DNA from: Candidatus Manganitrophus morganii
GTDB lineage: Bacteria > Nitrospirota > Nitrospiria > SBBL01 > Manganitrophaceae
Direction: 5' to 3'
Assembly (NCBI GenBank): GCA_021651055.1
Contig: JAJHOH010000001.1
Location: forward strand, 3,972,001 to 4,036,000
Length of the DNA stretch: 64,000 bases
Shown: piece after piece, positions 11,369 through 23,787 of the stretch
How the letters are laid out: each line of letters opens with the position of its first letter
How positions within the stretch are numbered: the first letter of the stretch is position 1
Translations under genes and position numbers: made by a program
Notes under the pieces: generated by a model
Told to the model about the DNA's origin: nothing
The model's database searches: none
What the model saw: only the letters and a program-made list of their open reading frames with translations

Positions 11369-11419
11369 ATGTTGATCAAGGCATTGAACGAAGCCATGCA
11401 AAGGAGATCGGGGAGATGA
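11369..11419 (+). CDS. 16-residue leader peptide coupled to the decarboxylase
   Basis: An ATG at 11369, preceded by GAGAGAGG, encodes MLIKALNEAMQRRSGR. Its TGA stop overlaps the decarboxylase start (ATGA at 11416-11419). Three Arg codons (AGG, AGA, AGA) stand near the end, but the AGG-AGA part coincides with the ribosome-binding site AAGGAG of the decarboxylase, which explains them. It may be a translational-coupling leader; no homology can be claimed. Confidence 0.35.
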   Translation: MLIKALNEAMQRRSGR

Positions 11420-14232
11420 AAAGCAAACACGCGGGATTGCATGCGATGAAGCAGCCGGGAACAACCGGGGCGGCGGCCGAAACCCCCGCCGATTTCCCAT
11501 CGATTGACCTGAAGGATTTTTTCTCGGCCTCCGAAGCGCGTGTGGATCGGTGGCGCAGCCTGCACCGGCTCGCAAAGGCATCGGCCGACGGAGGCGATTC
11601 TCGGATCGATTCCTTGAGAAGGGGGGCCGAAGTGCTTCTCGCTTCGATGCAGCCGATCGAAGATCTTTGCGCTTTCCCCGGTCCTCGCCTCATGGAGCAG
11701 GTGCACGACCGGATCCGAACCGGCGACTGGACCGGCTTTCTGCGCCTCGCGCAGCGGATCAGCTTCGCGCTCCTCTCCAACAGCTACCGGGATGATCCAA
11801 AGGCGTGGGAGATCGATGAGGAAGGCGAAGCCCACGCCCCGGAGATTCTCCCGCCGTCGATCGGACGCGGCCGGAGCCGTCGCCCTTATTTTGAAATCCT
11901 TATGGTCTCTCCGAGCGAACGCGCCTCCTGGCCGGAGCTCCGGCAAGTTTTCCACCGCCTGAGACGGGAGCACGACGAATTCATTTACGAGCCGGTCATT
12001 GTCGGCAGCCTCGAGGATGCGCTTTTGGCCGTCATTTTTAACTTCAACCTCCAGTCGGTCGTGATCAGCGACGGCTTCCGGTTCGCCTCCGAGTACACGG
12101 TGCCGGTCCTCCGTGAAATTCTTCAATGGCATGTTCGAATCGAAGATGCCGGCCGCGACGGCGATCTCGGCACGACACTGGCTCGCCTGATCCGCCGCGT
12201 GCGTCCGGAAATCGACCTCTACCTGGTCACCGACCGCGACGTCGGAAAGTTGGCGGGGTCGGACGAAGCCGCGCCGATCCGCCGCGTCTTTTACGGTGTG
12301 GAGGAGCCGATGGAGATCCACTTGAGCCTCCTCGAAGGGATCCAGGAGCGTTATACCACCCCCTACTTCGATAACCTGAAACGTTACGCCCAGCGTCCGG
12401 TCGGAACGTTTCATGCCCTGCCGGTGGCGAGAGGCAAGTCGATCTTCAAGTCGAACTGGATCCGGGACATGGGGGAATTCTACGGCGCGAATCTCTTTCT
12501 CGCCGAGTCCTCCGCCACCACCGGGGGACTCGACAGCCTCTTGGAGCCGACGGGGAACATCAAGCTTGCCCAGGATGCCTCGGCCCGCGCCTTCGGCGGC
12601 GACCGAACCTTCTTCGTCACCAACGGCACCTCCACCTCCAACAAGATCGTCCACCAGGCGTTGCTCAAACCGGGGGAGATCGTCCTGATCGATCGCGACT
12701 GCCACAAGTCCCACCACTACGGGATCGTGTTGGCCGGCGCGCAGCCGCTCTACATCGATGCCTATCCGCTCCCGCAGTATTCGATGTACGGCAGCCTCCC
12801 GATCAAACCGATCAAGCAGGCGCTGCTGCGGCTGAAGGCGGAAGGGAAGCTCGACCGGGCCAAGATGCTGGTCCTCACCAACTGCACCTTCGACGGGCAT
12901 GTCGCCAACGTGAAGCGGACGATGCTCGAGTGCCTCGCCATCAAACCCGATCTGATCTTCCTCTGGGACGAAGCGTGGTTCGGCTTCGCCCGCTTTTCCC
13001 CCTTTTTGCGCCGGCGCACCGCGATGGGGGCCGCCGCCGACCTGCGCGGGATGATGCGCGACCCGGCGTACCGGAAGGGTTACGACGCGTTCAAAAAACA
13101 GGTCGGTGAACTCGATCCCAACGATCCGCGTCTTCTCGAGATGTCGCTGCTGCCCGACCCCGACAAGGTCCGGATTCGGGTGTATGAGACCGACTCGGTC
13201 CACAAATCGATGTCCTCTCTGCGTCAAGGCTCGATCATCGTCGTCGCCGACCAGGATTTTCACAAGGTCGAGGCGGCCTTCAAAGAGGCTTTCTTTACCC
13301 ATACATCGACATCGCCCAACCTTCAGATCATCGCCACCCTCGACGTCGCGCGGCGGCAGATGGAACTGGAGGGGTATGAGCTGGTGGGGCGCGCGACGCA
13401 GCTTGCCATCGAGGTTCGGCGCGAAATCAACAGCCATCCCCTCATCGCCAAGTACTTCCGCGCCGCAACACCGGCCGAGATGATCCCGGCCGAATACCGC
13501 CGGTCTGACATGGCCGACTACGGGGCGCCCGGATGGACGATGGCCGACACGATCAAGGCGCTCGACGACGATGAGTTTTTTCTCGACCCGACGCGGATCA
13601 CGCTGCTGTGCGGCCGCGCCGGCTACGACGGGACCCAGTTCAAGGCGCTGCTGGCGAGCGAATACGACATCCAGATCAACAAGACCTCGCGCAACAGCGT
13701 CCTGGTCCAGATCAACATCAACAACACCCGCAGCGATCTGGCGCATCTCATCAAGGCCCTGGCCGACATGGCGCGCAAGATCGACCAGCGGCTTCAGGAG
13801 GGGGGCGAGGCGGAGCGGACGGCCTTCCAAGCGCGGGTCCAGTCGCTGGTGGAAGAGGTCCCCGACCTGCCCGATTTCAGCGCTTTCCACGACGCCTTCC
13901 GCGACGACCCCAAGAGCGCCACCAAAGAAGGGTCTATCCGGGCGGCGTATTACATGGCCTACGACGCCGAGAACTGCGAGTACATCCATCTCAACAGCAA
14001 GCAGATCGACGACCGGCTGAAGAACGGGCCGCCGTTGGTCTCGGCCAAATTCGTTATTCCTTACCCCCCCGGCTTTCCGATCATGGTGCCGGGCCAGGTC
14101 ATTACGCAGGAGACGATCACGTTTATGCGGAAGTTGGACGTCAAAGAGATTCACGGTTTCAATGCCGTCAAAGGTCTCGAACTGCTCAGGGCCGATGCGC
14201 TGGCGAGGCACAAGAAGAACGGCCGTCTTTAG
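11416..14232 (+). CDS. Orn/Lys/Arg-type PLP decarboxylase, long form
   Basis: This 938-residue PLP enzyme decarboxylates an amino acid, consuming a cytosolic proton. Order: a non-family N-terminal region (1-150), the receiver-like wing domain (about 155-270, YFEILMVSPSE to VVISDGF), the aminotransferase-fold core (TNGTSTSNKIVHQ, HKSHHYG, LWDEAWFGF with Asp518, and DSVHKSMSS with presumed PLP-Lys597) and the C-terminal domain (YPPGFPIMVPGQ). It is about 180-200 residues longer than E. coli AdiA or CadA. The start at 11416 has AAGGAG nine bases upstream. Substrate is not decidable; no AdiC/CadB/PotE-type exchanger follows, but an AspT-type one does. Confidence 0.9.
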   Translation: MKSKHAGLHAMKQPGTTGAAAETPADFPSIDLKDFFSASEARVDRWRSLHRLAKASADGGDSRIDSLRRGAEVLLASMQPIEDLCAFPGPRLMEQVHDRIRTGDWTGFLRLAQRISFALLSNSYRDDPKAWEIDEEGEAHAPEILPPSIGRGRSRRPYFEILMVSPSERASWPELRQVFHRLRREHDEFIYEPVIVGSLEDALLAVIFNFNLQSVVISDGFRFASEYTVPVLREILQWHVRIEDAGRDGDLGTTLARLIRRVRPEIDLYLVTDRDVGKLAGSDEAAPIRRVFYGVEEPMEIHLSLLEGIQERYTTPYFDNLKRYAQRPVGTFHALPVARGKSIFKSNWIRDMGEFYGANLFLAESSATTGGLDSLLEPTGNIKLAQDASARAFGGDRTFFVTNGTSTSNKIVHQALLKPGEIVLIDRDCHKSHHYGIVLAGAQPLYIDAYPLPQYSMYGSLPIKPIKQALLRLKAEGKLDRAKMLVLTNCTFDGHVANVKRTMLECLAIKPDLIFLWDEAWFGFARFSPFLRRRTAMGAAADLRGMMRDPAYRKGYDAFKKQVGELDPNDPRLLEMSLLPDPDKVRIRVYETDSVHKSMSSLRQGSIIVVADQDFHKVEAAFKEAFFTHTSTSPNLQIIATLDVARRQMELEGYELVGRATQLAIEVRREINSHPLIAKYFRAATPAEMIPAEYRRSDMADYGAPGWTMADTIKALDDDEFFLDPTRITLLCGRAGYDGTQFKALLASEYDIQINKTSRNSVLVQININNTRSDLAHLIKALADMARKIDQRLQEGGEAERTAFQARVQSLVEEVPDLPDFSAFHDAFRDDPKSATKEGSIRAAYYMAYDAENCEYIHLNSKQIDDRLKNGPPLVSAKFVIPYPPGFPIMVPGQVITQETITFMRKLDVKEIHGFNAVKGLELLRADALARHKKNGRL

Positions 14233-22552: not shown

Positions 22553-22605
22553 TCATCACCCCGGTCGTGATCAATGACGGAACAATTCGATTAAGGAGCC
22601 AGGCC

Positions 22606-23787
22606 ATGACAAAAAAAATCGCAATGATGATCGCATTGGCGGTCGGCCTCTTCGCCGCAGGCCTCCCTTTCTCCGCCGCGGAAGCGGCCGAAGGGCCGCC
22701 GGTAGATATTTATGGCTTTGTTCAGATGGATGCCATTTATGACTTCAACAGCGTCGATCCCAATTGGGAGGCGACCCTACGTCCCTCCAGGATCCCGGTG
22801 AATTGCTCGGGTCTCACCCCCGACGCCGGATGCGGGGAGGACGGGAATACCCTCTTCAGCGTTCGGCAGTCCCGCTTCGGCGCCATGGCCGATTTTCCGA
22901 CCGACATCGGCCAGCTGCAGACAAAATTCGAATTCGACCTCTTCGGCGTCGGCGCGGATGAAGGTCAAACCACGATCCGCCTGCGCCACGCGTACGGAGA
23001 ACTTGGGTCCTTCCTGGCCGGCCAGACGAACAGCCTCTTCATGGACGGGGATGTCTTTCCCAACACCATCGATTACTGGGGGCCGGGCGGCATGGTCTTC
23101 TTCCGGAACATCCAGTTCCGATGGACGCCGCTGAAAACCGATCATCAGAAATTCGCGGTGGCCCTGGAGAACCCCGGCTCCGCGCTCGATGTGGGGAACG
23201 CGGCCACGCCGGAAGGATGGGAGTCATGGAGTCGCGCTCCGGATATCACCGCGCAGTACCGCGTCGACCAGACCTGGGGGCATGCCCAGGTGGCCGGCAT
23301 CGGCCGCTGGCTCGGGTATCAGAATCCGACCATCCCGACCGGAAGGAATTCCGGACATGAGCTCGGCGGCGGGGTCAATCTGAGCGGAAGCCTCAAGACC
23401 TTCGGCAAGAACAAGTTGATGGCCCAGGTCGCCTACGGCAGAGGCATCGCCGCCTACTTTAATGACTGCTGCACCGATCTTGCCCCCAACGGGGCTCTGA
23501 CGGAAGGCGAGGCGGTGCCGCTGCTGGGGTGGCTTGTTTATTACGATCATTACTGGAGCGAACAGTGGAGCAGCTCTATCGGCTACAGCGCACAGAATCA
23601 AGACAATACGGATGGGCAGGCAGACGACGCCTTCAACAACGGGGCCTACGCCTCGGGAAACCTCCTCTGGTCCCCGACCAAGGAGGTCTTGATGGGGACC
23701 GAAGTGCTTTGGGGCCAACGCGAAAACAAGAATGGGGAGAAGGGAGACGACACGCGCGTCCAGTTCTCGGCGAAGTACAACTTCTAA
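22606..23787 (+). CDS. DcaP-like outer-membrane porin
   Basis: The 393-residue protein has a signal peptide (1-28, ending AAEAAEG) and begins its barrel with VDIYGFVQMDAIYDFNS, followed by SRFGAMADFPTDIGQLQTKFEFD, YGELGSFLAGQTNSLF and FFRNIQFRWTP. This resembles the trimeric DcaP family, which admits small negatively charged molecules. The C-terminus VQFSAKYNF ends in Phe as barrels do. The ATG at 22606 has AAGGAG eight bases upstream; the longer open frame upstream overlaps glutaminase and is not used. It may be the entry route for amino acids. Confidence 0.85.
   Translation: MTKKIAMMIALAVGLFAAGLPFSAAEAAEGPPVDIYGFVQMDAIYDFNSVDPNWEATLRPSRIPVNCSGLTPDAGCGEDGNTLFSVRQSRFGAMADFPTDIGQLQTKFEFDLFGVGADEGQTTIRLRHAYGELGSFLAGQTNSLFMDGDVFPNTIDYWGPGGMVFFRNIQFRWTPLKTDHQKFAVALENPGSALDVGNAATPEGWESWSRAPDITAQYRVDQTWGHAQVAGIGRWLGYQNPTIPTGRNSGHELGGGVNLSGSLKTFGKNKLMAQVAYGRGIAAYFNDCCTDLAPNGALTEGEAVPLLGWLVYYDHYWSEQWSSSIGYSAQNQDNTDGQADDAFNNGAYASGNLLWSPTKEVLMGTEVLWGQRENKNGEKGDDTRVQFSAKYNF

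Follow-up and report, generated by a model that had tools for sequence, protein, structure and literature searches.

A probably transferable gene island of Candidatus Manganitrophus morganii with two predicted amino acid decarboxylation arms and exported deamidases

What would a bacterium do with two decarboxylases, two AspT-family exchangers, and two exported deamidases encoded side by side? This question is raised by an island in Candidatus Manganitrophus morganii (Nitrospirota), which belongs to a genus of manganese-oxidizing lithotrophs. We analyzed a window of 64,000 nucleotides (assembly GCA_021651055.1, contig JAJHOH010000001.1, positions 3,972,001 to 4,036,000), and all positions below are those of the window unless a locus is named. 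A first-pass annotation had listed seven genes in a fixed order on one strand at 11416-23787, and profile matches and coordinates recovered all seven, in that order, on the plus strand. Gene starts were refined by alignment and inspection of the sequence. We consider it probable that the island is one transferable block with two parallel arms, one running from asparagine through aspartate to alanine and the other from glutamine through glutamate to gamma-aminobutyric acid (GABA).

The first arm is built around AspD, an aspartate 4-decarboxylase that converts aspartate to alanine and CO2 (16852-18582; TIGR03801, 780 bits; cut-off, 435). Upstream lies AspT1 (14285-16009; TIGR03802, 690 bits; cut-off, 547), an aspartate:alanine antiporter that grouped with AspD-adjacent antiporters in our AspT tree. 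The window therefore holds an AspD above its cut-off with a neighboring Asp:Ala antiporter above its own, and AspT adjoins AspD in most of the AspD loci compared. AsnB, a type II L-asparaginase with a signal peptide (18579-19649; TIGR00520, 429 bits; cut-off, 314), follows so closely that its ATG overlaps the AspD stop codon by 4 nucleotides (ATGA). The putative second arm comprises DC, a 938-residue pyridoxal phosphate (PLP) decarboxylase (11416-14232); AspT2, a second AspT-family exchanger (19811-21502; TIGR03802, 601 bits; cut-off, 547); and Gls, a glutaminase A with an N-terminal signal peptide (21521-22552; TIGR03814, 368 bits; cut-off, 255; PF04960, 371 bits; PRK12356, 461 bits). AspD, AspT1, AspT2, AsnB, and Gls thus all scored above curated cut-offs. 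Gaps between the genes of the island measure 18 to 223 nucleotides.

The gene order was found well beyond this genome. The complete series, DC-AspT-AspD-AsnB-AspT-Gls-DcaP-MarC, in which the last two genes encode a porin and a permease described below, is present in G163, a genome of the same class but of a different family. A Burkholderiales metagenome-assembled genome (MAG; L016) carries AspT-DC-AspT-AspD-AsnB-Gls-DcaP, and a Verrucomicrobiales MAG (L017, genome G250) carries AspT-DC-AspT-AspD-AsnB-Gls. Acidobacteria have DcaP-DC-AspD-AspT-AspT (L018) or AspD-AspT-DcaP-AspT-GAD (L014), where GAD is a canonical glutamate decarboxylase, and many Bacteroidota have AspT-AspD-AsnB alone. Because the order recurs in G163 and mostly in L016 and L017, it is not due to chance, and the island is probably one transferable unit. 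Conservation across genera, which the first-pass annotation had named as support for a unit, extends here to another family and to other classes and phyla. Within the Nitrospirota the genes are sparse: AspD is present in only 4 of 246 genomes and DC in 2 of 246 at a strict threshold, and 3 of 6 Manganitrophus genomes have AspD. Identity to the window genome is higher for AspD (G163, 84%; G058, 79%; L017, 71%) than for RpoB (75%, 68%, and 53%, respectively), and DC is 86% identical in G163 and 57% identical in L017. Sparse presence together with identity above that of RpoB suggests that the block spread horizontally. The AspD copy of Candidatus Manganitrophus sp. GAC4 is 98% identical to that of the window. 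At this GAC4 locus (L013:4473-17618), frameshifts interrupt DC, AsnB, and MarC, and the reading frames of AspT1, AspD, AspT2, and Gls are continuous; the frameshifts may be sequencing errors, decay being the other option.

The identity of DC is central to the second arm. DC matched Mycobacterium tuberculosis Rv2531c (PDB 9n0n and 9n0o; a third structure is 9n0p) with 735 bits over about 890 amino acids, spanning query residues 42 to 933 on 9n0o and including the long N-terminal region. By sequence, DC belongs to the Rv2531c family. Rv2531c has no known substrate, and its activity is described as not known in a 2026 review (PMC12910592). What the first-pass annotation called a large decarboxylase is not an ordinary member of the OKR (lysine/ornithine/arginine) group. 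DC is a distant homologue of LdcI, AdiA, and SpeF, which it resembles in the PLP and C-terminal domains; it is about 200 amino acids longer, has other partner genes, and fell far below the family cut-offs (LdcC, 177 versus 968 bits; AdiA, 147 versus 1167; SpeF, 144 versus 1310). The fold and the distant homology to AdiA and LdcI would allow DC to be a lysine, ornithine, or arginine decarboxylase, in which case the island would protect broadly against acid stress by acting on several amino acids. We regard that explanation as highly improbable given the scores, the GABA-linked neighbors of DC, and the lack of any CadB/AdiC/PotE-type antiporter in the neighborhoods examined.

In the tree of DC proteins, rebuilt without the misread row L200, the actinobacterial protein L197 is sister to a Myxococcota clade having Gls, AspT, and GadC neighbors. 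L197 is a close Rv2531c orthologue (1857 bits) and the closest relative of it that we compared; it has no nearby AspT, Gls, or GABA genes. A shorter OKR-like family of about 670 amino acids (L116-L139) is widespread in Burkholderiales. Its C-terminal end reads YPPGIPVLVPGQ, and its members score far under the Lys/Orn/Arg models. We know of no substrate for this family.

Gene context strongly suggests that DC is a glutamate decarboxylase. With equal 1.5-kb flanks taken for both groups, an AspT or a glutaminase was found near DC at 24 of 34 loci but at 0 of 24 loci of the ~670-residue relatives (Fisher 1e-8, a value that is indicative only, the loci being related and the rows not independent). 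The DC loci with these partners span Nitrospirota, Burkholderiales, Verrucomicrobiota, and Myxococcota. Among the Burkholderiales, Achromobacter and Bordetella included, DC adjoins AspT-type exchangers, mostly without AspD, and in most Myxococcota genomes it adjoins glutaminase. At two Myxococcota loci (L165 and L201), an AspT-DC pair is accompanied by a glutaminase gene and a porin gene. L201, arranged as AspT-DC / Gls-GadC / porin, includes a GadC above its cut-off (TIGR03813, 788 bits; cut-off, 650). At L163, DC lies with succinate-semialdehyde dehydrogenase (SSADH) and GabT (TIGR00700, 532 bits; cut-off, 507), the genes of the GABA shunt, and L160 has GabT-like and SSADH-like genes. Divergent DC relatives at L160 (5481-7956), L163 (6881-8251), L143 (11642-14097), and L144 (9510-11908) also adjoin a PRK06524-like "biotin carboxylase" ATP-grasp protein, followed in three of the four by a C45 autoproteolytic hydrolase. 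These neighbors possibly belong to a separate pathway that uses the decarboxylation product.

The strongest single argument for conversion of glutamate to GABA is that a known GAD takes the place of DC in otherwise similar blocks. In Acidobacterium S8 (L014), a canonical GAD (TIGR01788, 536 bits; cut-off, 380) follows the second AspT, and no DC was found in the genome. L015 has AspT-AspD-GAD-AsnB with a GAD 75% identical to that of L014, and again no DC was found in its genome. In Dysgonomonas (L073) the GAD lies upstream, as GAD-AspT-AspD, and Bacteroidales L038 has GAD-GadC-AspT-AspD. DC and Gls are also missing together. G183, a sister species in the genus of the window, keeps AspT1, AspD, AsnB, and AspT2 but retains only remnants of DC (about 88 residues) and Gls (about 43), with no other glutaminase found in the genome, and G058 has neither DC nor Gls.

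These data bear on an explanation with one arm only, in which both exchangers would serve aspartate and alanine at another affinity or pH range, the deamidases would scavenge nitrogen, and DC would be an unrelated decarboxylase upstream. Such a reading would accommodate the passing of the Asp:Ala antiporter cut-off by both AspT1 and AspT2, as well as the common occurrence of AspT-AspD-AsnB alone in Bacteroidota. Against it stand the recurrence of DC with AspT and glutaminase in Burkholderiales and Myxococcota without AspD, the joint loss of DC and Gls in G183 and G058, and GAD in related islands that lack DC. We think it unlikely.

Active-site residues were compared as well. The OKR enzymes carry a C-terminal YPPGxPxxxPGE motif, the glutamate of which we take to contact the distal amine of the substrate. 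PGE is present in the three solved lysine/arginine decarboxylases that we aligned, whereas DC proteins carry YPPGFPxxxPGQ; PGQ was found in all correctly read DC members and in 23 of 24 ~670-residue relatives. Six residues past the catalytic lysine, 25 of 25 DC proteins have an arginine; the ~670-residue relatives, LdcI, and AdiA have serine at this position. This arginine is a candidate for contact with the substrate carboxylate. An acidic substrate could also be aspartate: DC would then be an aspartate 1-decarboxylase forming beta-alanine, both arms would use aspartate, and AspT2 would exchange aspartate for beta-alanine. Both the invariant arginine and the asparaginase and AspT neighbors suit aspartate as well as glutamate, but glutaminase, GadC, GabT with SSADH, and replacement by a canonical GAD all point to glutamate and GABA, and we judge the beta-alanine version very unlikely.

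AspT2 is the predicted partner of DC for glutamate and GABA. It grouped with the G163 copy and with the copies of L107 and L109 (support, 100/96) and then with that of L018 (99/95). Members of this clade occur only at DC loci, and L107 and L109 have no AspD. The AspT family includes glutamate exporters (PMC9527358). AspT2 may be a Glu/GABA exchanger, an assignment weaker than that of DC because L016 and L017 have second exchangers that group elsewhere in the tree.

Several observations weigh against glutamate as the DC substrate and against the two-arm arrangement. The placement of the L016 and L017 exchangers means that the mapping of exchanger to substrate is not clean, and AspT2 scores above the Asp:Ala equivalog cut-off. 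PGQ was dropped as proof of an acidic substrate because the uncharacterized ~670-residue Burkholderiales relatives share it. A class III aminotransferase beside DC is weakened as proof of a GABA shunt by GabT homologues adjoining 13 of the 24 ~670-residue relatives; only the L163 GabT, which lies with SSADH, passes the GABA-transaminase cut-off. No glutaminase was found in the DC genomes G251, G260, G256, G415, and G513. The gene context as a whole is compatible with alpha-decarboxylation of aspartate to beta-alanine. Neighborhoods of the actinobacterial orthologues, including the closest Rv2531c relatives, were uninformative, and for this reason we extend the glutamate substrate to Rv2531c only as a hypothesis. 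Finally, co-transcription of the island is predicted from gene spacing. The shared leaders invoked in the first-pass annotation found no confirmation: a promoter scan gave one promoter-like site, at 11019 upstream of DC, with a mean of 3.4 expected by chance, and an Rfam search for regulatory elements gave no match.

Both deamidases of the window have clear, typical N-terminal signal peptides, judged by eye, and are predicted from these to be exported. Asparaginase signal peptides were also seen in L011, L012, L016, L017, and Bacteroidota. The glutaminases of L011 and L016 have a signal peptide and that of L017 a lipoprotein-like leader; none was apparent by inspection in three other glutaminases, L166-L168.

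Taken together, we propose the following model. In the first arm, exported asparaginase would convert outside asparagine to aspartate and ammonium, AspT1 would exchange aspartate (−1) inward for alanine (0) outward, and AspD would consume one cytoplasmic proton in making alanine and CO2. In the second arm, exported glutaminase would convert outside glutamine to glutamate and ammonium, AspT2 would exchange glutamate (−1) inward for GABA (0) outward, and DC would use one proton in forming GABA and CO2. The DcaP porin would pass substrates through the outer membrane, and MarC may handle a neutral product. For each substrate, one negative charge would enter and one proton would be removed, charging the membrane and raising internal pH, while released ammonia would raise the pH outside. 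Electrogenic exchange with proton use would thus yield proton-motive force, acid tolerance, or both. The first-pass annotation had suggested a chain in which asparagine and glutamine are deamidated outside and aspartate is taken in, decarboxylated, and exported as alanine. The conserved unit, the exported deamidases, and the Asp/Ala cycle of that proposal stand; it gave no role to DC or AspT2 and left glutamate as a dead end. Energy conservation and acid tolerance, which it had also suggested, are sensible functions as predicted from the genes, and the sequence does not decide among energy, acid tolerance, and nitrogen supply.

The remaining genes lie in or around the island. The DcaP-family outer membrane porin (22606-23787; PF19577, 94 bits) recurs in G163, G058, L014, L016, L018, L165, and L201; acidic amino acids or amides are predicted to enter through it. 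The MarC/NAAT family permease (23866-24519; PF01914, 132 bits) has the same place in G163, and MarC adjoins AspD in Bacteroidales L043 and L038; it is probably an eighth member of the island, with a putative role in neutral amino acid transport. An OmpX/OmpA-like eight-strand barrel (16083-16628; PF13505), absent from the first-pass annotation, lies between AspT1 and AspD in the window genome and in GAC4 but not at that place in G163, and is probably incidental. G183 has a sulfatase and an FGE-type maturase there instead (L010:6294-9132), so the AspT1-AspD junction seems open to insertions. A Phenol_MetA_deg-family protein is encoded upstream of DC (9885-10901). G183 and GAC4 also have one upstream of their islands, and none was found at the G163 locus. 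Downstream, 25350-38851 encodes GH15, glycogen-debranching-like, alpha-amylase-like, and GH63-like enzymes and a mechanosensitive channel; this cluster has no apparent relation to the island and resembles a set for the metabolism of storage compounds or compatible sugars. The porin, permease, and barrel genes are all on the plus strand.

On balance, we lean slightly toward a broader view, in which the Rv2531c family would be a second, independently evolved family of bacterial glutamate decarboxylases, of OKR lineage, paired with AspT-type Glu/GABA exchangers, and one mobile block would hold two coupled proton-motive cycles fed by exported deamidases. This view offers a testable substrate, L-glutamate, for an enzyme family in which the M. 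tuberculosis member has solved structures but is still a functional orphan, and it suggests that AspT-family proteins exchange GABA. A transferable twin cycle could supply slow-growing lithotrophs with extra proton-motive force or pH control from two amides.

Parts of this system are already known. Tetragenococcus halophilus AspD/AspT forms a proton-motive Asp/Ala cycle with electrogenic Asp(−):Ala(0) antiport (PMC9508256). The island shares an aspartate 4-decarboxylase beside an Asp:Ala antiporter, and its exchange would be electrogenic by analogy; it adds one more exchanger and one more decarboxylase, a porin, and two exported enzymes, asparaginase and glutaminase. In AR2_Q and the Bacteroides GAD system, glutaminase is coupled to glutamate decarboxylation with acid/neutral exchange (PMC6250119, PMC8082179). 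The island resembles these in its glutaminase of the GlsA/YbaS family and in predicted glutamate decarboxylation with exchange, and one neighbor at L163 is similar to a K+ channel, a component also of the Bacteroides system. No PF00282/TIGR01788 match for a canonical GadB was found among the island proteins, the only part of the genome searched, and no GadC-type APC antiporter lies in the island, where the exchangers are of the AspT family; GadC does stand beside DC in L201. In the literature searched, we found no paper that treats AspT and AspD together with an asparaginase or a glutaminase. Within that literature, the twin layout and the exported deamidases that would feed both arms are new, and so is the predicted use of an AspT-type exchanger for GadC and of an Rv2531c-family enzyme for GadB. 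In AR2_Q, GadC imports glutamine and deamidation takes place inside, whereas the island Gls has a signal peptide; besides the stand-ins for GadC and GadB, the island adds an Asn/Asp/Ala arm.

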